Virus record (IMG/VR): IMGVR_UViG_3300035666_000090
Location: 1 to 36,072 of that record
DNA length: 36,072 nt
Reading direction: 5' to 3' (one strand)
DNA from: a virus
Shown: piece by piece, positions 4,942-33,142 of the stretch
Position numbering within the stretch: position 1 is the first letter of the stretch
Layout of the letters: the number at the start of each line of letters is the position of its first letter
Notes under the pieces: model-generated
Database searches by the model: none
Told to the model about the DNA's origin: nothing
The model's input: only the letters and a program-made list of their open reading frames with translations
Translations under genes and position numbers: made by a program

Positions 4942-5241
4942 CTACCCCGCAAACACTCTCACAGGCTGCTCCGGCTCAACGATGTAAGCGTCCCAGCCGT
5001 CGGGGAGGTCGCCCACGTAATTGACGTGCCAGCCGCTCAGCAGCACGGGTGGGGTGATCACCTCGCCGGTGTCGGGGTCGTAGGTGCCGCCTTTGTAGAT
5101 GGGGCCGATGACATCCAAGGCGTGGGTGTGGCTGGCGGTGAGCACCACGGTGTCGCCGTCGTCATTGGTGGTAGTGAAGCCAGCAGCATCCAGGGCAGCC
5201 ATGCCGGTGGATTCGTCGGGGAAGCGGATGTAGTGCGTCAT
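4942..5241 (-). CDS. Conserved phage protein downstream of the fibre gene, 99 aa
   Basis: Begins MTHYIRFPDESTGMAALDAA and ends with GWHVNYVGDLPDGWDAYIV and RVFAG. I recall this pattern (HALDVIG..., GWHVNY, PxGWxxyxVxPxxPxRVFaG) from small proteins that follow tail-fibre genes in many phages; no biochemical role is known to me. The ATG at 5241 overlaps the stop of the upstream HNH gene in an ATGA junction. The longer in-frame start at 5364 lies inside the HNH gene and is rejected. It is the last gene of the leftward late arm. Confidence 0.75.
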   Translation of the reverse strand: MTHYIRFPDESTGMAALDAAGFTTTNDDGDTVVLTASHTHALDVIGPIYKGGTYDPDTGEVITPPVLLSGWHVNYVGDLPDGWDAYIVEPEQPVRVFAG

Positions 5242-5248
5242 TGCGTGA
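5236..5248. repeat. 13-bp direct repeat, left flank of the HNH gene
   Basis: CGTCATTGCGTGA at 5236-5248 matches CGTCATTGAGTGA at 5826-5838 with one mismatch. The two copies lie exactly at the 3' and 5' ends of the HNH gene and contain its stop or start codon, each within an ATGA junction. This fits an insertion that preserved the coupling sequence. Confidence 0.6.
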
Positions 5249-5831
5249 TTGCCTGCAGCGTGGAGTTGGCTAGGCGCTGGGCTAAGCGATGCCTGTACCC
5301 CGAACTTGCAGCACCGGGCTTGCGTTTTGGTTGTACGGGTAAGTCTGCAGTTGCGTCTGCCCAAATCTTGCGATGTCGGATTTGGCTAATTAAATTGGAG
5401 TTAACGTTGTAATCTTGCGCAATTTCGCGGTTAGTCCTTGGGTCAAGATAAATATTTCTAACCGCTTCTGTAGTCAGCTTACTAGCTCCATTCCTTTGAC
5501 CTTTGCAGCTAACCCTGCGATTTTTTGCATCCATGTCATCAATATTCTCTTTGGCCGTTCCAAGAAACAAGTGAGCAGGGTTGACGCAAAGAGGTACATC
5601 ACAAACATGGCAGACCATCATTCCATCTGGAATGGGTCCATTTGCAATTTCAAAAGAAAGCCTGTGAGCCCGCTTTTGTATTTTCCAACCGAGCTGGAAG
5701 GCTCCGTACTTACCGCCACGGCCGCCTTGCTTTGCGCCAGTCCACAACCAGCAGTCTGTACTGCTGGACTCCTTGTCAACCTTTGACCAAAAATTGCTGA
5801 GCCGGGTTTCGGTCAAGACTCCTGTCGTCAT
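5238..5831 (-). CDS. HNH homing endonuclease with C-terminal HTH
   Basis: Free-standing homing endonuclease, 197 aa. FWSKVDK (14-20) then CWLWTGA (27-33) is the usual N-terminus of the HNH_3 family. AHRLSFE (55-61) follows, and the ββα-metal core is VCHVCDVPLCVNPAHLFLGT (73-92), with H75, N84 and H87 as the HNH residues and C74/C77/C82 as structural cysteines. Residues 117-156 (SKLTTEAVRNIYL, then NREIAQDYNVNSNLISQI) form a NUMOD/HTH-like DNA-binding part. The gene joins the upstream fibre gene and the downstream 99-aa gene through ATGA overlaps on both sides and is flanked by near-identical 13-bp repeats. It is more AT-rich than the fibre gene, which fits later acquisition. Confidence 0.88.
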   Translation of the reverse strand: MTTGVLTETRLSNFWSKVDKESSSTDCWLWTGAKQGGRGGKYGAFQLGWKIQKRAHRLSFEIANGPIPDGMMVCHVCDVPLCVNPAHLFLGTAKENIDDMDAKNRRVSCKGQRNGASKLTTEAVRNIYLDPRTNREIAQDYNVNSNLISQIRHRKIWADATADLPVQPKRKPGAASSGYRHRLAQRLANSTLQAITQ

Positions 5832-5838
5832 TGAGTGA
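5826..5838. repeat. 13-bp direct repeat, right flank of the HNH gene
   Basis: CGTCATTGAGTGA, one mismatch from the copy at 5236-5248. It spans the stop of the fibre gene and the start of the HNH gene. Confidence 0.6.
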
Positions 5839-7192
5839 CCTGCTGTAATACGTTATTTCCAAGTCTAACAGGCCAGTAGGTGAGGCGGCGGATGGTGCCG
5901 TTGTAATGCAAAGTGGCATTGCCTTGCATCCCAATACCTAGCGTAGTCAACAAAGTAGGCACAGAGCCGGAAGTATCAGAATTAGTCAGCACACCACCCG
6001 TGGCCCCAATAAAATCATTTGCTTTGTAAACCCATGCGCCGTTTACAGTAGTGTTAGCAGCAGGTGCAATTCCATTGTTGAGTCCGACTGCTTGGCCTGC
6101 GGCATCAGCGAAAACGCTGTAGTCCAGTCTGCGAGTGCTACTGCCTCGCACTGCGGCAATAAAATTAGTGCTAGCATCGGCTCTGTCAAGGCTAAACAAT
6201 CTTGGAAAATTTGTTTGCGTAAAATCTTGCACGCCCGCACTTGCAAACACCGTCCCCTCATCCTGCCGATACCAGGAGCTGAAGTTTGTGCCCGTGATGT
6301 TGGCAACGTCCGCGTTGCGGGTCTTCCCAAATGGTGCAGTGTTATCAGTCAATATCACGCTGGTCGCAAATGCACCCTGCTCTAGCTGGGGCAGGCCGAT
6401 GCGGAGAGTAATGTCTATTGGTGTACCGCCTGCTGCAGCGGTAATGCTGAGGACTGATTGAATTTGATTAGCGCTGGCTCCAAAAGAAGTTGTAATATTC
6501 TGCCTTCTAACAAAGTCAGAAGAAATACTTGAAACAAAGTTAGTGCTAATTTCACGGACATACGCCCCAGAGTTGAGTTCAAAATTTCTTAGGCTAATCC
6601 CTCCTATATTTGAAGTGCTTCCTCCTGCCAATGAAAGCCAAGCAGTGGCAGTCCAAGCCTGGGCCAGCGTTGCCGTTGTTACAGGCGATAAATACAGAGT
6701 GATTTCACCTGTTGAACTTGGAGTTCCATTAAAGCGAACGTCAATGTAGTTAATGCCATTGACGGTTCCACTGCCAACAATCGTGCGTGTTAGTCCAGTG
6801 GGGGAGACAAAGGTGCCCCATCCAGTCGGCAACGTTCCAGGTGTACCAGCAACTGCGCCCACCATTGTGTTATTGGTGACGCTGTTGGTCCTCTGCTCCT
6901 CCACCAGCAGGCCTAGGCTTTCGCCGGTCGTGGGGTTGTGGTCAAACCTCGGCACATCCACAGCTGCCGTCTGCAGCGTTCCCGCGCTGTCGATGTAGGT
7001 CGCGCTGCTGGCGCGGGTGAAGGTGACAAGGGATTGGTTACTTACCGCGTCGGTCAGACTTTTTCTTTCCGCAAAACGCAGATCGAGGCTGGGCACTGTG
7101 CGAGCTCGCCGCCAGAGCTCGTCACGCACCCACGGACCAGCCAGTACGCCGCCGGGCGATACTGCCGCCCTGAACGCTCCAGAGCCTCGCAT
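5828..7192 (-). CDS. Tail fibre / spike protein with lectin-like C-terminus
   Basis: A 454-aa virion protein. Residues around 50-110 (SLVTFTRASSATYIDSAGTL, then PRFDHNPTTGES and LGLLVEEQRTN) match a domain common at the start of phage tail fibre and head-fibre adhesins. The middle is Ser/Thr/Gly-rich beta sequence (about 110-290) similar to carbohydrate-binding modules. The C-terminus (about 300-454, ending IRRLTYWPVRLGNNVLQQVTQ) looks like a concanavalin A/LamG-type fold. It probably binds host surface polysaccharide. The start ATG overlaps the upstream stop by one base (TGATG). The downstream neighbour was probably the 99-aa gene before the HNH gene inserted. Confidence 0.78.
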   Translation of the reverse strand: MRGSGAFRAAVSPGGVLAGPWVRDELWRRARTVPSLDLRFAERKSLTDAVSNQSLVTFTRASSATYIDSAGTLQTAAVDVPRFDHNPTTGESLGLLVEEQRTNSVTNNTMVGAVAGTPGTLPTGWGTFVSPTGLTRTIVGSGTVNGINYIDVRFNGTPSSTGEITLYLSPVTTATLAQAWTATAWLSLAGGSTSNIGGISLRNFELNSGAYVREISTNFVSSISSDFVRRQNITTSFGASANQIQSVLSITAAAGGTPIDITLRIGLPQLEQGAFATSVILTDNTAPFGKTRNADVANITGTNFSSWYRQDEGTVFASAGVQDFTQTNFPRLFSLDRADASTNFIAAVRGSSTRRLDYSVFADAAGQAVGLNNGIAPAANTTVNGAWVYKANDFIGATGGVLTNSDTSGSVPTLLTTLGIGMQGNATLHYNGTIRRLTYWPVRLGNNVLQQVTQ

Positions 7193-7854
7193 CAGAGTCC
7201 GGCCTCCAGCAGATTCATGCGGACTTGTACTGTGCTTGCGCTGACAGGGGTGTAGGCGCCGCGAGTCTCCAGTTCGGCGTACAGCGTGGTACTAGCGGTA
7301 GCCAGCTTGAGTAGGCGGCCTGGGTAGTCCACTTGGGTATAGAGGCTACTGCCGAAGTCTTGGGGGGTGGAAAAGTCCACGTAGCCCATGTAGTTAGCGC
7401 GTTCGCCGCTCAGCAGATCGAAGGCGGCATTGTCGGCAGTAGCTGTAGGAGTGGCGTCGTAGAGATGAAGGCGGAAGGCACTCATACCGCTGGGCACCAC
7501 GCTGTCGCTGAACACCAGGGAAGCACTTTGGAGGAAGAGGAAGCCGCCGGAGGGGCCTGCGGAGGTGAAGGTGAGGATGGCGCTGCCACTGGTGTCGCCA
7601 ACGACATCACCAGCGGTGTAGGCGGTGGCGTTGCTTGGTCGGGTGATGGTGGTGGTGGTGCGATACGCCTTGCCGTCAACGGTCAGACTGCTACCAGCAT
7701 CAGCAACGGGGATGGGGTTGCCCGAGTCATTCTTGATTTCGACATCGCCAAGACTAATCGCGCCAACATCCGCTACAAGTTCGCCGTTGCTATTAACTTT
7801 AACTGGAATTGCATTTCCAGCCGTGGTGCGTCCAATTAAAAAAGAGCCTGGCAT
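7192..7854 (-). CDS. Virion structural protein, 220 aa
   Basis: A conserved-looking phage structural protein without a known enzymatic domain. It starts MPGSFLIGRTTAGNAIPVKV, has a TVDGKAYRTTTTITRPSNAT segment, then a beta-rich body with AFRLHLYDATPTA and a C-terminus DYPGRLLKLATASTTLYAEL. The AYRTTTTI..PSNATAYTAGDV pattern occurs in small virion proteins of cyanophages and other marine phages, recalled from memory. Its start is the first gene after a 57-base gap. Coupled to the fibre gene by a TGATG overlap. Likely a fibre-associated or decoration protein. Confidence 0.65.
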   Translation of the reverse strand: MPGSFLIGRTTAGNAIPVKVNSNGELVADVGAISLGDVEIKNDSGNPIPVADAGSSLTVDGKAYRTTTTITRPSNATAYTAGDVVGDTSGSAILTFTSAGPSGGFLFLQSASLVFSDSVVPSGMSAFRLHLYDATPTATADNAAFDLLSGERANYMGYVDFSTPQDFGSSLYTQVDYPGRLLKLATASTTLYAELETRGAYTPVSASTVQVRMNLLEAGL

Positions 7855-7911
7855 GAGACTGTGTGGCGCTATGGCTAAATCTTAGCGGCAATGGCAGCAG
7901 CAAGGATCGGC

Positions 7912-8163
7912 CTAATCCTCTGGACTGGGCATCTCGGATACCATTTGCATGTATTTTTCAATCTTAAATTCTTCGCTCATATTCTTTGATGCTTCGCAGA
8001 GCGCCCAAACAGCGCGACTGTTATTGAAGGAAGCTTGGTGATTCAGTAAAAGCGCAAGCTCCAGAAGCCCTTGATAGTCCTTTGAGCTAAACAATTCCTT
8101 CAGCCTTTCCGCGTTCAGCCTTTCCTGAAACTGATCCTCTGGGCGATACGTTGGGATTGACAC
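7912..8163 (-). CDS. Hypothetical protein, 83 aa
   Basis: Starts at GTG 8163 (MSIPTYRPEDQFQERLNAER) and is entirely helical, with LKELFSSKDYQGLLELALLLNHQA in two stretches. No membrane segment or motif is seen. It is transcribed divergently from the sigma-factor block; only 19 bases separate the two start codons, so any promoter for one must lie inside the other's coding region or further upstream. Function unknown. Confidence 0.6.
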   Translation of the reverse strand: MSIPTYRPEDQFQERLNAERLKELFSSKDYQGLLELALLLNHQASFNNSRAVWALCEASKNMSEEFKIEKYMQMVSEMPSPED

Positions 8164-8182: not shown

Positions 8183-8380
8183 GTGACCGAGCATACCGAG
8201 CCCTGGCTTCAAGCGCCATGCAAAGAAAATGATTGGAAGTGGCGCGTTTACGGAATGGGCGTCGTGTGGGATCATTCGCAGGAGTGGCAAGCGGTTTGGA
8301 AGCTCCACTATCTGCAGGTATCCTCCGGCACCACCCAAGACAATGCCCCCAAAGGACTCGATTCAGGCTTATCTCAATGA
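8183..8380 (+). CDS. Trp-rich small protein upstream of the sigma factor, 65 aa
   Basis: GTG start at 8183 with GAGGA at 8172-8176 as a good ribosome site. The product is unusually rich in tryptophan ([33 protein letters not shown]), acidic to neutral, with no membrane segment. It overlaps the sigma-factor start by 38 bases, so translational coupling is likely. The strong ribosome site and the position directly before the sigma gene support it as real; it might be a small regulator of that factor, but this is only inference from position. Confidence 0.5.
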
Positions 8381-9233
8381 AATAGGTCGCTACCCGCTCT
8401 TGACGAAAGCTCAAGAGGTTTCCCTTGGTACGCAAATTCAAGCGTGGATTGTTTCTGAAGAAAAAAGCGAGTCCGATCAGACAGAAGAAGACAGGAAAAT
8501 TGCAAGAACTGGAAGAAGGGCAAAAGCAAAATTCATAAATTGCAATCTTCGATTGGTTGTCAATATTGCAAGAAAATATGAACGGCATTGCAATACTCTT
8601 GATTTCATGGATTTGATTCAAGAGGGCAACATGGGATTGGTTCGCGCAATTGAAAAATTTGACCCAACCAGAGGATACGCATTTAGTACATACGCATACT
8701 GGTGGATTAGACAGTCGATTCAACGCGCAATACAATCAACAGATTACTGCATTCGGCTTCCTATCGGAATTCACGAATCAATGAGCAAGATCAAGAAGAC
8801 AATCGAGGTTTTATCAAAAAAACTTGGGAGAGAGCCAACAATTTACGAAATAGCAATTGAGTCAAAAATTACTCTAGAGGAAGTCAAGAGTGCGATAGAG
8901 GCACCAAAATCACTAACAAGTCTTGACAAAATGATTGGCGATGGCGAAACGGGATCAACGATTATCGACATTATCCCAGACGAAAAAAATTCAAATACAG
9001 TTGACGACGCAGAATCGAGACTAAATATTATTGATGCGTATATGGCAATTGATCTTTATTTGGATGAGCAGACAAGACTTGTCGTGCTTGAGCGAAGCAA
9101 GAGTCCATCGACAACCTGGAAAGATCTGTCAGAAATGACAGGTATCTCCAAGGCGAAGCTGCAAAAGATGGAAAAAGATGGACTTCGCAGATGCGCTCTA
9201 CTTTTAGCAATAAAGAAAAGAATCGACTCCTAG
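8343..9233 (+). CDS. RNA polymerase sigma-70 family factor (group-2-like)
   Basis: Would direct host RNA polymerase to phage promoters. From ATG 8343 the protein has 296 aa. Region 1.2 is [17 protein letters not shown] (5-21). Region 2 runs about 67-136 with [30 protein letters not shown] and [26 protein letters not shown] (137-145) begins region 3, then [10 protein letters not shown]. Region 4 is about 222-293. The helix that usually reads TRAI after WWIRQ reads QRAI here (Thr to Gln at 127), and the region 4.2 recognition helix ([11 protein letters not shown], 267-277) departs from SRERVRQIE. Both changes suggest altered promoter recognition. It resembles cyanobacterial group 2 factors more than T4-type late sigma. 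Its stop abuts the convergent endolysin stop. Confidence 0.92.
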
Positions 9234-10853: not shown

Positions 10854-11135
10854 CTACTTCCAGGTGTGACGAGTTTTCAATTTCAAGTCTTCGACACTTC
10901 CTTCGACCTGATCAACGCGATTCTCAAGAACACTGATGCGTTGAGTCATCGCTGTCATTTTCTCAAGAATCAAGTCAAGCCTTTGCGGGACAGTGAAAGC
11001 AATAAATCCAATCCCGCATGTTGCCATCAAAATAAGGCCAGCGGCGACCTGCTCCTCGACACCCCTCCAGTCGAACAGAGACCTCGACACATTACGATCT
11101 GTGTCGCCGCGAGGGGTGTCGTCTTCGCTGCCCAT
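10854..11135 (-). CDS. Membrane-anchored coiled-coil protein
   Basis: A 93-aa protein (ATG 11135; TTG 11141 possible) with a charged N-terminus (MGSEDDTPRGDTDRNVSRSL), one membrane segment (VAAGLILMATCGIGFIAFTV, about 28-47) and a coiled coil with heptads in LILEKMTAMTQRI and LENRVDQVEGSVEDL. This layout resembles hemolysin XhlA-type or spanin/antiholin-like accessory lysis proteins. It is the first gene of the lysis cassette after a 133-base gap. The topology is clear; the role is inferred from position. Confidence 0.65.
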   Translation of the reverse strand: MGSEDDTPRGDTDRNVSRSLFDWRGVEEQVAAGLILMATCGIGFIAFTVPQRLDLILEKMTAMTQRISVLENRVDQVEGSVEDLKLKTRHTWK

Positions 11136-11268
11136 GGTCAACTGGATCTCATTGACAGGGTAGCGAGCGTGACGACAGCCCTATACAGCGTCCAGCTTCA
11201 AAGACAGAGCATTTTAATGCTTTGTCCATATTGGGTGGTTGCAGCGCAGAGCAAACTGCACCGATGAA

Positions 11269-13884: not shown

Positions 13885-14193
13885 TCAGACCAGCCTTGCG
13901 AAGCCAGCGATGGGGACTGCGAACAGAATACTGGTGGTGTTCAGGCTTGGATGCGAGATCAATCCTTCTATCTCCTGACTTCCAGCGTCAAACATTTGAA
14001 CGACCGGCTTAAATCCTAAATTGTGATTTATCAGCCAGGTTGTAGATGGACTTCCTTGCGTAAAAAGGAACCCGGCTCCAGCTGGGCCTTGTGGCCCTTG
14101 TGCGCCAGGTGTAATTACCGTTACAACAATGCCTTCGCTGCTATCTGTAGCAACAATAGTTTGTGTTACAGCTTCAACGTTTACGATTGTCAT
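13885..14193 (-). CDS. Small fibre protein with collagen-like motif, 102 aa
   Basis: Contains a short GPQGPAG collagen-like run (GAQGPQGPAGAGF, about 30-42), followed by STTWLINHNLGFKPVVQMFD and HPSLNTTSILFAVPIAGFAR, a conserved terminal domain of many phage fibres. The collagen-like run may promote trimerisation. The ATG overlaps the upstream stop by 4 bases. Confidence 0.75.
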   Translation of the reverse strand: MTIVNVEAVTQTIVATDSSEGIVVTVITPGAQGPQGPAGAGFLFTQGSPSTTWLINHNLGFKPVVQMFDAGSQEIEGLISHPSLNTTSILFAVPIAGFARLV

Positions 14194-14528
14194 GTCGTGT
14201 ACCCCTGAGAAACGTAAATTGTCCCTCCAAGGTAATATTCTTTTAGATTTGATGGATTTGTTAGCAACACGTCATAGTAAACTTCATCAGGAAATGTGGC
14301 TGTTTGAGTTTCCGTAAAACTTAGCTTGACTTTGCCGATTGATCTATCTGTATATTGGACCGCAAAATCTGCGTACTTTACAGTACGATCCTTGTTCCAA
14401 GCTTCTGCATCAACTACCCAACCGGTCAGGTTGATTGGAGTCCCCGTGCCACCTTTGAACTGCAGCATTAGGCTGTAGTCCGCCCGACGCTTCAGGGGAA
14501 AGTTGTAAGTGCCGGGTGTGACTGCCAT
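14190..14528 (-). CDS. Virion protein, 112 aa
   Basis: Starts MAVTPGTYNFPLKRRADYSL and has a predicted beta-sandwich pattern (LMLQFKGGTGTPINLTGW, then DRSIGKVKLSFTETQTATFP). The 'R.ady...l.fk..dGtpi.LtGw...a' pattern resembles the N-terminal domain of small phage baseplate or upper fibre proteins (BppU-like), a tentative match. It lies between a tiny basic protein and fibre genes, supporting a structural role near the tail tip. Confidence 0.68.
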   Translation of the reverse strand: MAVTPGTYNFPLKRRADYSLMLQFKGGTGTPINLTGWVVDAEAWNKDRTVKYADFAVQYTDRSIGKVKLSFTETQTATFPDEVYYDVLLTNPSNLKEYYLGGTIYVSQGYTT

Positions 14529-14537
14529 GGATGCAGC

Positions 14538-14672
14538 CTAGCGTCCCTGGCCACACATTTTCTTGCGACCATGACTGGGCTTGCTGTGCTTCCCTTGGCC
14601 TTGCCGGGTCATCTTCGGCTTGCCAGGTTGATGGTCAACGCGGCCAGTGCCGGTTTTGCTTTTGACGGTCAT
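14538..14672 (-). CDS. Tiny basic protein, 44 aa, cyanophage-type
   Basis: ATG at 14672 gives a very basic 44-aa protein: MTVKSKTGTGRVDHQPGKPK at the start, then TRQGQGKHSKPSHGRKKM, ending CGQGR. It is rich in Lys, Arg, Gly and His with almost no hydrophobic residues. I recall short proteins with the same RVDHQPGKP...TRQG...KPSHGRK...RGQG pattern from cyanophage genomes, next to structural genes; function unknown. It fills the gap between J and the 112-aa virion protein. Confidence 0.72.
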   Translation of the reverse strand: MTVKSKTGTGRVDHQPGKPKMTRQGQGKHSKPSHGRKKMCGQGR

Positions 14673-14696: not shown

Positions 14697-16949
14697 TTAG
14701 GTTGTCCCGTAGCCCGCAGCAACATAGTCGGCCTCGACATATGGACCGAGGGTATATTCTGCGCGAGCCGCTCTGCTTAAGCCGGAGCTGGGAGAAACGC
14801 TGAATACTTGTATGTGGTGTTTCCCAGGCACAGGATTTTCAACATCAAAAACAAACCCTTGAACATCAGCGGTTGTAAATATGTCTTCGTCTGCGCGATA
14901 TTTTACCCTAAACTGTCCTATGCCAATAGGCGCAGTCCAGAAAAATGTAAGTTTTTTAACAATAGTACCGTTGCGGTTGATGTCGATTTCTGTGCCACGT
15001 ACATTTTGTGGCGCTCCAGGCAGTGCGTTAAGCTGAAAACCCTGCCTGGGGGCAATCGGAATATCCGCTTCAACGTAATCATATTTTGCTGGATTATAGG
15101 CCACTGCGGTTATAGAATATTGCGCGCGATCGTCTTCTTTTATACTAAGTACGCGCCATAGCGTTGTTTCTACGATTTCATTTTCAAGCGCCCAAAGTGA
15201 ATTTACGTTTGGCGCGGCACTGAATGGCTGCGATACGGTAATTACTCCGTCTAGAATTGACTCAACTTGGCGGGACTCAAGCACTCCATCTGGAAGAATT
15301 ACTGATACAAGTGAGCTTGCTGGTGCTCCGCCAAGGTCCGTACCTGTTGTAGTGTCAACCGTAATTTGCGTGGCTGTTGACGCGGCGATACGTCCAGCAC
15401 GCCTTGAACCGGAATAGAGTGGATCAGAAATTTTTATGATTTGCCCAGGACGTATTTTCTGTCCAGCTTCTAAGCCGGATTGGAACGTCACAACATTTTT
15501 TTCGTAACGCTCTGTGTAAATAAGCCAGCGGCCCAGCCTACGCGCCTGCCCTCTGCTTGTGCAGCCAAAAGCGCTAATTTCTGTTTTTATTACACCGTAT
15601 TTATCAATAAGCTCGGGATCCTCCTCTACCTCATACGCAATATCGCGTGTTTCAATGTCGAGATAGCTGACTACGGCTACGTTTGGGCGCGTCTTGAGGC
15701 TTGAATTGCTATAAGCAAATCCTTCTTCAGAAACATTGGCCAATGTAAATAGATACGCCGGATCAGATGGTCTATCCTGAACAATAGTAAGAGCACCGGC
15801 ACTCCAGAACCCTTGACAACGCATTACAGATAGCAAGTCATTTACTGTTTTGTAGGCGTCTTCTGATATTTGTATATTTGCATTGCAAGAAAAGCGGGCT
15901 TCTTGCCCACCAAAGCCGTCAGGAACCAACTGATTGGAATATTTTGATGCAGCAAAGAAAGCCCATTTATCCAAATTCGCGGCCTTAATGTGATCGCCAA
16001 AACCATAGCGGCTTTCCGTTAAAACATCCCACAGGATCCAGGCTGGGCAGGATGTCCAAACTGCCGGTCCCAATGTGCCATCCCAAACAAAATTGAGCGG
16101 GTAAACAATGCGTCCTGTTTCTTGATCAACTTCAACACCCTTCGGGATTCGTACCTTGATTCCCTTGACCAAGTAACTGCGTTGCGGAATAGAATTAAAT
16201 TGTTGAGCGTTGACACGAAAAGCAACAAGAGCGCTATTTGGGTAACGTGGTTTTGAATAAATAATCTCTGTGTAGCTGATCCATATTGTTTTGTTGCTTA
16301 AAAGTTGATCCGTGCTATCGTCGGTTACACGTAAAACTTTTATGTCTACAGTTGCTCCAGAAGCGCGTTGCGGTAGCTGCACTAGATACTGCTTCCGGTA
16401 CTCATCTGGCGTTCTGCCAGATATTGTATCGTCTATACTTTCTGCAAAGCCACCGCCGTCATACTGCACAAATATCTTTAGCTGCACTGCCGTTCCTTTT
16501 GTGTCGCCCGTTTCGTTATCAATACGCTGCAACGACGGTATGGCTATCGTGATCCTTACTGCATCTACTTCAGAATCTGTAATGCTTCTTACAATAGGAA
16601 AGTTTTTAAGTATCTCAGTGTTTACTGGCTTTTCGTCTTCAATAGTCCCACTTCCCAATGGAATCCAACTTTGGGTTTGAGTGCCAACACGTTGATATAC
16701 TTTTACATCCTGGAAATTATACGTTCCGTCTGAATTTTGTAGTTGAGTATTATTGAGAAAAATAGATTGATAGCCATCCACCAGACCCTTTATTTCTCCT
16801 TCTGAAATTAGATCAACCAGATAGGCGTATTGCGTTGAATTTAGGCTGTCTTCGTCTGTTATCGGCTTGCGTGGAGCCGGTGCGTTTCCCTTGCCGCCTG
16901 CACCGGAAATAATAGTATTTTTTTGCCGTTCAGGAAAAGGAGAAGACAT
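14697..16949 (-). CDS. Tail tip / host specificity protein, gpJ-like
   Basis: Central tail hub protein of the lambda J family, 750 aa from ATG 16949. Early residues show RKPITDEDSLNSTQYAYLVD and ISEGEIKGLVDGYQSIFLNN, the typical J N-terminus. The middle has RVNAQQFNSIPQRSYLVKG, YPLNFVWDGTLGPAVWTSCP and WILWDVLTESRYGFG, all signature J segments. The C-terminus (LPGAPQNVRGTE onward) is a fibronectin III-like domain ending YGTT. The GTG at 16985 would overlap the zinc-ribbon gene and is less likely. It is shorter than lambda J (1132 aa), lacking the extended receptor-binding C-terminus, a task that the separate fibres may perform. Confidence 0.9.
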   Translation of the reverse strand: MSSPFPERQKNTIISGAGGKGNAPAPRKPITDEDSLNSTQYAYLVDLISEGEIKGLVDGYQSIFLNNTQLQNSDGTYNFQDVKVYQRVGTQTQSWIPLGSGTIEDEKPVNTEILKNFPIVRSITDSEVDAVRITIAIPSLQRIDNETGDTKGTAVQLKIFVQYDGGGFAESIDDTISGRTPDEYRKQYLVQLPQRASGATVDIKVLRVTDDSTDQLLSNKTIWISYTEIIYSKPRYPNSALVAFRVNAQQFNSIPQRSYLVKGIKVRIPKGVEVDQETGRIVYPLNFVWDGTLGPAVWTSCPAWILWDVLTESRYGFGDHIKAANLDKWAFFAASKYSNQLVPDGFGGQEARFSCNANIQISEDAYKTVNDLLSVMRCQGFWSAGALTIVQDRPSDPAYLFTLANVSEEGFAYSNSSLKTRPNVAVVSYLDIETRDIAYEVEEDPELIDKYGVIKTEISAFGCTSRGQARRLGRWLIYTERYEKNVVTFQSGLEAGQKIRPGQIIKISDPLYSGSRRAGRIAASTATQITVDTTTGTDLGGAPASSLVSVILPDGVLESRQVESILDGVITVSQPFSAAPNVNSLWALENEIVETTLWRVLSIKEDDRAQYSITAVAYNPAKYDYVEADIPIAPRQGFQLNALPGAPQNVRGTEIDINRNGTIVKKLTFFWTAPIGIGQFRVKYRADEDIFTTADVQGFVFDVENPVPGKHHIQVFSVSPSSGLSRAARAEYTLGPYVEADYVAAGYGTT

Positions 16950-16953
16950 TAGA

Positions 16954-17124
16954 TCACCATTTGTCGGCTGGGCACTTTGCACCATTAAACCAGACCTTGA
17001 TGCGCATAAAGCAGCCGCACATGCTACACCGCCCAGTAGCTTCAGAAAAGTTTTTGCAGGTAGCGCAAACAGCTAAGCGTGTACTTGCTAGATGCTGCCG
17101 ATTGGGAGACAAGGTGTGGTTCAT
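16954..17124 (-). CDS. Zinc-ribbon small protein, 56 aa
   Basis: From ATG 17124, the protein reads MNHTLSPNRQHLASTRLAVC, then ATCKNFSEATGRCSMCGCFM, ending KCPADKW. Six Cys (20, 23, 33, 36, 38, 51) form a likely zinc ribbon. Small proteins with the C.xC...T..C..CGCfM..K......CP...W pattern are found in many phages, often among structural genes; their function is unknown. It lies between the I-like and J-like genes, 4 bases before the J start. Confidence 0.72.
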   Translation of the reverse strand: MNHTLSPNRQHLASTRLAVCATCKNFSEATGRCSMCGCFMRIKVWFNGAKCPADKW

Positions 17125-17134
17125 AGAGCACTGC

Positions 17135-18319
17135 CTATGGAATTTTTGGACCCTGCCCATCAGCATAACCGTCCCATAGGGTTTCCAATTCTATAACCTC
17201 GACAGTCGTTTCGCCGTCCTGACTAAATTCAAATCCAAAGGGTGCGCCAATGCTGTAAGGCTCTTCTGGGCTTACCCCACCAACCCATTGCCCGAAAACC
17301 GCAAATATAGTATTATCGGACTTTCTGATGCCCCACAATGCGGCCAAAACCCCACCCATGCTACCAGATGCAACTCTGATTGTTGAGCCACCGAACCAAG
17401 CCTGAGATTTAGGGCTAGAGGCAGTCGGAGGATCATTGAACGGAGTGTACCAGTACGGGTAACCAGATGCTGTTGGAAACCACTCACTAACATAGTCCAG
17501 TCTTCTTGCCCGCCAGTACCTGAAGTTACTTGTATAGACTTGTACTACCGTGGGAGGTGTCGTGATTGTAGTGCCATCATTACATTTAATCATAGCAAAA
17601 ACCGTTTTACCTCCATCTAACGCTGAAGGGTAAAAAGCCTCACCTCTTTGACCGCTGTCGGCGCCGTTAAGAAACCATATTATTTCATTAACTATACATA
17701 TGTCTGATGGAACAGTAAGGAAGCTAAAATCATCAGCATATGTTATCTCTATTGGACCTGCGCCACCCCCGAGGTCTTCTATTTCATTCCCAATGCCTGC
17801 GGAAATAACGACACTGCCGACTAGCGTTTTACCGTAAACAAGTGGCACCGGTGTGCCTGCGCGACTGGTTTGTTGTATGCCAGAAAAGTTGTAACTCTTT
17901 TTTATGTCGGAGGTAGAATTTTCGCCTTGCCCTACTCTTGGGACTGGGGTAATGAGTTGAGCCACGCCGCCAAGCACTAGGCTTGCGCCAAGTCCGAAAA
18001 GAATAGGTGCCACAAATGGTACGAAAAATGATATAGCTATAAGCGCAATTCCAGCCAAAATGCGTCCAACGGCGCCAGAGCCTTCGATAACTGGAACGAT
18101 TTTTATTGCTTCTACATTTGTTATATCATGTAGTTCATCTGCTGCCAATGATGTATGTGTAATTACTCTGTAATGCTTGTCGGCCATGTGCTGCTCAAGC
18201 CCTTCAAAATTCGCCACAAGAAAGCGCACGGCCTCAGCCGCTGTGCTTATATCAGCCTCCAGAACTCTTGAGCCTACAAATTTTGCAAGGCTGCCATAAA
18301 GCCTAATCTTGCGAAGCAT
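17135..18319 (-). CDS. Tail assembly protein, gpI-like with long C-terminal extension
   Basis: The N-terminal part matches lambda gpI: MLRKIRLYGSLAKFVGSRVL, then VRFLVANFEGLEQHM, a membrane-like Gly/Ala-rich segment (IALIAISFFVPFVAPILFGL, about 90-110) and the LITPVPRV ... YNFSGIQQTSRAGTPVPLVYG segment (about 125-170) that normally ends the protein. Here it continues for about 220 more residues, beta-rich and aromatic (FPTASGYPYWYTPFNDPP), ending DGYADGQGPKIP. Lambda gpI has about 220 aa, so the extension is unusual. It overlaps the K-like gene by 17 bases. gpI assists J assembly. Confidence 0.85.
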   Translation of the reverse strand: MLRKIRLYGSLAKFVGSRVLEADISTAAEAVRFLVANFEGLEQHMADKHYRVITHTSLAADELHDITNVEAIKIVPVIEGSGAVGRILAGIALIAISFFVPFVAPILFGLGASLVLGGVAQLITPVPRVGQGENSTSDIKKSYNFSGIQQTSRAGTPVPLVYGKTLVGSVVISAGIGNEIEDLGGGAGPIEITYADDFSFLTVPSDICIVNEIIWFLNGADSGQRGEAFYPSALDGGKTVFAMIKCNDGTTITTPPTVVQVYTSNFRYWRARRLDYVSEWFPTASGYPYWYTPFNDPPTASSPKSQAWFGGSTIRVASGSMGGVLAALWGIRKSDNTIFAVFGQWVGGVSPEEPYSIGAPFGFEFSQDGETTVEVIELETLWDGYADGQGPKIP

Positions 18320-19013
18320 GACGCAACCTCCTTCCAGTGCATTTTAGGAGCCAACCCCCGTAAATATCACGACTGCTAAGCCTACTGCGTAAATGGTGAA
18401 GTATCATACCGTCTCCAATATATACGCCGCAATGGTTCAATCCTGTGTCTGATTGAATCGACATAAGCAGAGCATCCCCTGGCCGCAATTCTTCGTCATC
18501 ATTCAGTTCCCTGAATCCGGCCGCAGGCCAGCAGGAGTCAAACATGGGGGCCTTGATGAAATCCATTGGATTCACGGGCCGATCCCAGTCAGGAAGCTCG
18601 ATGCCCTGTTCTCCGTACCAGTCACGGACCAGTGTCCAGCAGTCCTGCACGCTCCACACCCATTCTCTGCCGACCAAAGGAGACATGTAGCCACATGGCG
18701 TATAAGTAGACCAAAACGAAGTCTGTGGATTGACTATGTGCCACGGCAGGTCAGTCTTTTCTGCTGCAACCTTGTCGGCGTTACTGGCTACTGCCGACAT
18801 TGTTGGATGACTATGAACTATGGCCATAATCTCACCTGCCTGCTCTGCCTGCGCGTAATCATCTGGATTTATGGTAAACATCTGCTCTGGATACACCGAT
18901 ATATTCTTGCACGGCCAGTACACTTCTTCTCCTTTTATGATGACAACAAGTCCGCACGATTCGGTTGGATATGCAGATTTTGCATGGTTTAACGCTTTTT
19001 CTTGCCAGCTCAT
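18303..19013 (-). CDS. Tail tip peptidase, gpK-like (JAMM + NlpC/P60)
   Basis: A 236-aa two-domain protein like lambda gpK. The N-terminal half is a JAB/MPN (JAMM) metallopeptidase domain with E18 in YPTESCG and the zinc motif HSHPTMSAVASNAD (67-80; exactly HxHx7Sx2D). The C-terminal half is an NlpC/P60 domain with C125 in VQDCWTLVRDWY, H194 in NHCGVYIG and possibly H206. Both catalytic motifs look intact. It probably processes tail-tip proteins and cuts cell wall during DNA entry. The ATG forms an ATGA overlap with the L-like stop. Confidence 0.9.
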   Translation of the reverse strand: MSWQEKALNHAKSAYPTESCGLVVIIKGEEVYWPCKNISVYPEQMFTINPDDYAQAEQAGEIMAIVHSHPTMSAVASNADKVAAEKTDLPWHIVNPQTSFWSTYTPCGYMSPLVGREWVWSVQDCWTLVRDWYGEQGIELPDWDRPVNPMDFIKAPMFDSCWPAAGFRELNDDEELRPGDALLMSIQSDTGLNHCGVYIGDGMILHHLRSRLSSRDIYGGWLLKCTGRRLRHASQD

Positions 19014-22971: not shown

Positions 22972-23026
22972 GTTAGGTACGAAAGAAGGTGAAGGTTGAC
23001 GGGTGCGAACTCAGCCTAGCAGTAGC

Positions 23027-30267: not shown

Positions 30268-30303
30268 TCGATCGACCTGAAGTTAGCGACAGTCTAGCGA
30301 GGC

Positions 30304-32316: not shown

Positions 32317-33084
32317 TCAAGCAGTAACAAGATCCAGGTTCACGGCGGCGGACGGACGGAAGTTGATCGAGATGCTTTGGGCATCGTCCGGGTTAACTGT
32401 GAAAGAAGCAGAAGTCAGAGTGACTTCGGTCTCGATCGAACGACTCTTGGTGTCATCCACCACGCCAGCGGTCTCCACACGGTCAATGTAGAGCTTCATC
32501 GTGGCGCCAACCTGCTTACGGCGCAGCACATCAGTGATGATGCGGTTGGCGAAAGCGTTGTCTTCGTCGGTCATGTAAACAGTGGCGCTACCGTTTGCGT
32601 CACCAAAACCGGAAATATACGAGCGGAAGGGCACGTATTCGGTTTGGGATTGGCCAATGGTTGTCACGTCGATTTCTGCGCGAGAAATCTCAATGCTCCA
32701 GTCGCGGACTTCAGCGACGGCACCAAAGCTTGCGTACTGAACGCGGAACTTGTTGGGCGAGACGATCGTGCCGTCGTTGGTGATGTCCTCAACAGTGCCA
32801 CCAGATGTCGAAGAAATCGTCATCAGGCCGGTGGTCTGCGAATAGGTCAACACGTAATAGGTGTTGGCGCCGACCAGCGTGGACGGGAGGGTGCCAGTAC
32901 CAGTTGTGTTGGTAGTGGTATTCCAGATGTCAAACTTGATGGGATCGCCAACGCGGAAACCCATGTAGGTTCCAACGAAAATGGTGTTGTTGGTGGCGTT
33001 GACATCAAGCTCGCCAAAAGTTGCATAGGTGCCTGCGGGCTTATAGTAGAAAGCCCCGGAAATACCGGACAGAACGGTTGCCAT
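32317..33084 (-). CDS. Major tail (tube) protein
   Basis: A 255-aa protein beginning MATVLSGISGAFYYKPAGTY. Its body RDWSIEISRAEIDVTTIGQS, EYVPFRSYISGFGDANGSAT and VYMTDEDNAF matches siphovirus tail tube proteins, which bind tail terminator and tape measure. An extra N-terminal domain (about 25-115; PIKFDIWNTT, LVGANTYYVLTYSQTTGLMT) looks like an added Ig-like fold that would decorate the tube. Its position between the tail terminator and chaperones and the strong terminator behind it fit an abundant product. Confidence 0.87.
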   Translation of the reverse strand: MATVLSGISGAFYYKPAGTYATFGELDVNATNNTIFVGTYMGFRVGDPIKFDIWNTTTNTTGTGTLPSTLVGANTYYVLTYSQTTGLMTISSTSGGTVEDITNDGTIVSPNKFRVQYASFGAVAEVRDWSIEISRAEIDVTTIGQSQTEYVPFRSYISGFGDANGSATVYMTDEDNAFANRIITDVLRRKQVGATMKLYIDRVETAGVVDDTKSRSIETEVTLTSASFTVNPDDAQSISINFRPSAAVNLDLVTA

Positions 33085-33142
33085 GACAAACAGGGGGTAG
33101 TGGCTTTAGCGGGCACTGCCCGGCTAAGGGCAGCGTAGCGAC

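Follow-up and report, generated by a model that had tools for sequence, protein, structure and literature searches.

We asked whether a sigma-70-like gene carried by an uncultured cyanophage diverts host RNA polymerase to promoters of the phage's own. The window, that is, the whole stretch of 36,072 bases analysed here, comes from a virus record and not from a cellular contig, and the gene in question translates without a stop into 296 aa (Table 1). Pfam found Sigma70_r1_2 (4.7e-13), Sigma70_r2 (1.9e-21) and Sigma70_r3 (4.5e-14) in the product, and Sigma70_r2, with its core-binding and melting segment, was found in 23/23 relatives. The closest solved structures by fold were sigma subunits of transcription initiation complexes. 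The ORF is a real sigma-70-family factor and, with regions 1.2, 2 and 3 all detected, is not a T4-type late sigma, as the preliminary description of this locus had held. That description had also listed region 4 as present, which applies only loosely: Sigma70_r4 gave no match in the window sigma even at E<=1, and at this threshold the domain was weakly matched in only 9/23 relatives (best 6.5e-5). The clade profile can be aligned through region 4 of solved SigA/RpoD/RpoS, to position 282-288, and AlphaFold2 places region 4 helices at 242-251, 259-266 and 270-295 (mean pLDDT 76; pTM 0.48, with uncertain domain placement). Together, profile alignment and model suggest that region 4 may form a helix-turn-helix. 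Judged by its sequence, the protein is a divergent phage branch belonging to neither group 1 nor group 2, in that regions 1.2-3 fit and a canonical SRERVRQ-type region 4.2 is absent. The longest ATG-started ORF of the frame spans 8229-9233; the start at 8343 is preferred because close relatives have their Met at the same or an adjacent position and because the 8229 extension overlaps a conserved ORF in another frame.

The helix expected to read the -10 element carries Gln127 in the context WWIRQSIQR, and alignment confirmed that this residue occupies the position of E. coli sigma70 T440. Likewise, the region 4.2 helix differs from the usual SRERVRQIE, as had been noted. In E. coli sigma70, variants of Q437 and T440 alter -12 recognition, H455/E458 act on -14G, and R584/E585/R588 act on the -35 element (PMC2613000). 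A scan of viral contigs yielded 80 relatives, and the Gln127 sequences (23 aligned phage members) form a single clade with support of 100/99. The same position is Thr, Ser or Gly in the next phage group; among isolates it is Cys in S-CBS1, Ser in S-CBS3, Thr in KBS-S-2A and Ser in S-LBS1. Hosts sharing the Gln were not found: its DNA pattern occurred in 0/386 cyanobacterial genomes and the residue in 0/80 host loci, 79 of which have Thr. Several viral sigma lineages outside the clade also show the Gln pattern, and in some of them the SRERIRQ helix is canonical; Gln is therefore recurrent and not tied to an altered region 4. Paired adjacent sigma genes occur in G011 (16091-16963 and 17230-18066) and G411 (17494-18357 and 16619-17266).

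The ORF overlapping the sigma start has 65 codons and is conserved in the Gln127 clade and in a second Gln lineage (q45). Differences among its homologues favour third codon positions (414/269/664 at positions 1/2/3), and sigma follows directly after it in 42/42 contigs long enough to tell. In L028, and in those Thr-clade members and isolates that were examined, the region before sigma showed no homologue. That its product is a sigma partner is a guess. On the other side of this ORF lies a divergent 83-aa gene, which in most relatives examined is close to the dCTP deaminase gene; in the window a ~3-kb cassette (HNH endonuclease, tail-type proteins; 4942-7854, minus strand) stands between the two.

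To find promoter sequences, we counted every 4-2-3 gapped 7-mer, without prior bias, in the regions that precede late-strand genes in 11 clade genomes; genes were called with a simple in-house caller. This placed GCTANNCTG at the top by far (28 vs 0.66 expected, lnP -77.8; next best, -17.9). When the set was enlarged to 14 genomes, 34 sites were found vs 0.96 expected, distributed over 11/14 genomes; there were none upstream of rightward genes, and no motif of similar standing emerged when rightward regions were enumerated in the equivalent way. As a hold-out we used two clade genomes that joined the set only once the motif was known; they contained 6 sites vs 0.27 (Poisson p 4e-7). Pooling was what worked; run genome by genome, an EM motif search gave weak results in most cases and partly caught host-type promoters. 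Each of the seven fixed positions was specific, the consensus letter occurring 34 times vs 0.9 and most alternatives lying near background; at -12, only T was enriched (34 vs 0.9), and C was seen once vs 3.3. Confinement of a promoter class to late genes, the mark of a phage late sigma, was thus seen for GCTANNCTG, which is late-strand only, with lateness judged from gene content.

The sites lie mostly 18-48 nt from the start codon and the late element is kept across orthologous late regions of relatives. At 19/20 independent sites the base predicted as +1 is a purine, a feature that is only moderately discriminating, given 12/16 in a control with the motif elsewhere. No column of the -35 region exceeded 0.4 bit, and hence none is conserved; at several late sites, a terminator-like hairpin with a T run occupies this region. 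The altered region 4.2 fits the missing conserved -35. In the window, five candidate cores and one variant core were located on the leftward strand (Table 1). The candidate closest to its ORF shares bases with the stop codon of a small ORF upstream, which is also the case in relatives. A tail-tip J-type protein encoded at 14697-16985 has its nearest annotated counterparts (~35% identity) in phages that infect proteobacteria, not in cyanophages. In S-CBS3 (L162), acTAGCCTG is found ~40 nt before the sigma gene on the same strand, possibly reflecting autoregulation. Cyanosiphovirus sigma genes are already known; in a limited literature search we found no prior description of GCTANNCTG, which appears undescribed.

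Table 1. Positions of the sigma gene, its notable residues, neighbouring ORFs and candidate late promoter cores in the window
Feature	Position	Strand	Basis
Phage sigma-70-family factor, 296 aa (regions 1.2, 2, 3; region 4 shortened, divergent)	8343..9233	+	translation, Pfam, clade alignment
Gln127 codon, at the position of E. coli sigma70 T440; the residue is the same in all 23 aligned clade members	8721..8723	+	alignment
Gln131 codon (E. coli position 444, one turn further along the helix); His in the L028/L189 branch, Gln in the rest of the clade	8733..8735	+	alignment
Region 4.2 recognition helix, residues 267-277, without R584/E585/R588-type residues	9141..9173	+	alignment
ORF of 65 codons, conserved but unannotated, in a frame other than that of sigma, whose start it overlaps; candidate partner of sigma	8183..8380	+	
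Conserved divergent neighbour, 83 aa, no assigned function	7912..8163	-	
Candidate late promoter core GCTACGCT(G), separated by 47 nt from the start of ORF 32317-33084; kept in 7/7 orthologous regions	33132..33139	-	
Candidate late promoter core GCTAGACT(G), preceding the tape-measure gene and shared with G007, G008, G010	30291..30298	-	
Candidate late promoter core GCTAGGCT(G)	23013..23020	-	
Candidate late promoter core GCTAGGCT(G), with a gap of just 6 nt to ORF 14190-14528	14535..14542	-	
Candidate late promoter core GCTACCCT(G), preceding ORF 10854-11141	11157..11164	-	
Variant core GCTAAGAT, with ORF 7192-7854 starting 24 nt further downstream	7879..7886	-	

The check proposed earlier was for a motif absent from host promoters. 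Such absence holds for the longer GCTANNCTG only, which occurred 0 times in 792 host upstream regions where fewer than one was expected. Its core, TANNCTG, was enriched upstream of picocyanobacterial host genes (12 vs 2.3, and 17 vs 5.5 in a second count), and we rejected the view that TANNCTG is wholly phage-specific. TANNNT was also enriched upstream of Cyanobium-like host genes, where TAGGCT was found 8 times vs 0.8. TANNCTG is enriched in other phage groups as well, the Thr-clade phages and isolates using it without GC. With its enrichment in hosts, this makes the core host-like. What distinguishes the clade motif from this host-like core, on the sites compared here, is the addition of G-14 C-13: GC precedes TANNCTG at 32/54 sites in the clade vs 3/23 in the Thr clade, 1/9 in isolates and 0/17 in hosts (Fisher, 1.5e-4, 8.8e-3 and 4.9e-6, respectively, with related sites treated as independent). 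In the q45 lineage, GC was present at 1/6 TANNCTG sites (p 0.06; few sites).

Given the enrichment of TANNCTG in picocyanobacterial hosts, the host primary sigma might use the late promoters. The late motif would then be a -35-less (extended) -10 promoter of the host primary or a group 2 sigma, and the phage sigma would act elsewhere, for example in host takeover or at few sites. The TANNNT and TANNCTG enrichment upstream of Cyanobium-like genes and the GC-less use of TANNCTG by Thr-clade phages and isolates speak for this explanation, as do the early host-type promoters, in which GC also precedes TATAAT and is therefore not unique to late promoters. Against it stand the host counts of GCTANNCTG, small as the expectation was, and of GC-preceded TANNCTG, and the fact that, for a separate block, these phages rely on consensus promoters of another class. 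In seven relatives, 35 host-consensus TTGACA/TATAAT promoters were found, 4-6 per genome and all leftward, occupying blocks apart from the late sites. We regard use of the late promoters by a host sigma as possible but rather unlikely. By eye, an inverted repeat, CACGT...ACGTG, recurs in the spacers of several TTGACA/TATAAT promoters (G003, G005, G007, G405, G406), and could be a candidate repressor operator. G002, whose sigma is close, lacks GCTANNCTG, and many of its sampled leftward regions fall in its early block.

The proposal that Gln127 redirects -10 reading was not supported by these comparisons: T-12 is kept, the TANNCTG core is common to hosts, and q45, with few sites, carries Gln without a clear GC signature. 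A -12 change caused by Gln127 was thus rejected as the simple reading, and the q45 sites give no support to the idea that Gln127 by itself accounts for GC at -14/-13. Gln127 and Gln131 acting together are one candidate for the readers of G-14 C-13. In the L028-type branch, G012, G412 and L189 had no GCTANNCTG in the sampled regions and have His for Gln131, in few genomes. The correlation with Gln131 is only a lead, as it would depend on a single branch (G012, G412), whose late genes differ in content.

Taken together, it is probable from these sequence comparisons that the phage sigma switches host polymerase to the leftward late (virion, lysis) genes via GCTANNCTG-type promoters. This reading draws on features observed by computation, namely the residues fixed in the clade, the motif and its distribution by strand and distance, the purine at +1, the lack of a conserved -35 and the separation of the promoter blocks. 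The sigma gene ends the rightward module (RusA, ThyX and dCTP deaminase genes) and faces the lysin gene where present, an arrangement common to the isolate phages S-CBS1, S-CBS3 and S-LBS1. In the proposed sequence of events, the host primary sigma would first use the separate leftward TTGACA/TATAAT block seen in seven relatives. The rightward replication/nucleotide module, ending with the sigma gene, would presumably precede the opening of the late module by sigma. The phage factor would join host core RNA polymerase and start leftward late transcription at GC-TANN(C/A)T-G cores without a conserved -35. Of the earlier idea of a redirected polymerase and a late switch, the switch is thus backed comparatively by the late-strand-only motif and the separate host-consensus block, and the role given to Gln127 is not.

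In an extended form of the late-switch proposal, the 65-codon product would be a dedicated sigma partner, for example a co-factor that binds the beta-flap or sigma-4 and replaces -35 recognition, in a -35-independent late holoenzyme whose Gln127/Gln131 helix reads G-14 C-13; we hold this to be doubtful. It is improbable that the sigma instead drives host reprogramming or stress genes in a group 2-like manner while some phage activator binds the late motif. A degenerate region 4 could call for an activator and the small co-encoded protein is conserved, but the spacing from element to purine start is that of a -10 element and not of an upstream activator site. Decay of the divergent sigma to a non-functional protein is hardly credible, since region 4, albeit Pfam-negative in the window sigma, keeps its own conserved residues (W259, E277, C284), regions 1.2-2.4 are strongly conserved, and >20 relatives, 51-72% identical, keep an unbroken frame.

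The late-switch reading can be set against known sigma systems. The sigma proteins of S-CBS1, S-CBS3, KBS-S-2A and S-LBS1, annotated as rpoD or group 2 sigma, share 38-44% identity with the window sigma over the matched part. As in the window phage, the gene lies between rightward replication and leftward late modules near a lysozyme gene, clearly so in S-CBS1, S-CBS3 and S-LBS1. Unlike the window sigma, three of them have a near-canonical 4.2 (SRERIRQ in S-CBS1, SREAIRQ in S-CBS3, SRERVRQ in KBS-S-2A), and no homologue of the 65-codon ORF was found beside sigma in any of the four. The papers found describe no target promoters for annotated cyanosiphovirus sigma genes. T4 gp55 is a late sigma with a -10-only promoter and lacks the full domain set; the window sigma would resemble it in its late, -10-only promoter and differs in having regions 1.2, 2 and 3. 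RpoS has Glu, which is Gln-like, at the T440 position (WWIRQTIERAI), where the window sigma has Gln, and retains a canonical region 4 (LTRERVRQIQ), unlike the window sigma. At the 458 position, RpoS has a Lys that reads -13C, whereas the phage sigma has Glu/Asp. The RpoS consensus TNTGCYAAACTT shares G-14 C-13 and C-8 T-7 with the late motif (PMC4447067), a likeness of promoters that we treat as an interesting parallel only. In phiEco32 and phage 7-11, gp36 and gp47, respectively, act with host core polymerase on middle/late genes, and the single-element promoter of gp36 has been explained by absent region 4 homology (PMC8948821). Their consensus elements (tAATGTAtA for gp36; GTAAtg-(16)-aCTA for phage 7-11; PMC8948821) differ from the late motif. 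In the report on the siphovirus P-SS2 (PMC2784084), ORF113 is a group 2 sigma predicted to modulate host RNA polymerase, and sigma-70 promoters are predicted. Its authors assign it to canonical sigma-70 promoters, in contrast to the reading proposed for the window sigma, and the passages considered here describe neither a late motif nor an altered helix for it.

For a group of uncultured cyanophages, the motif predicts where late promoters lie, in a form that can be tested directly. In addition, sister phage clades differ both in helix residues and in the bases at -14/-13, and so provide a natural experiment on the way in which sigma region 2.4 reads DNA upstream of the -10 element.
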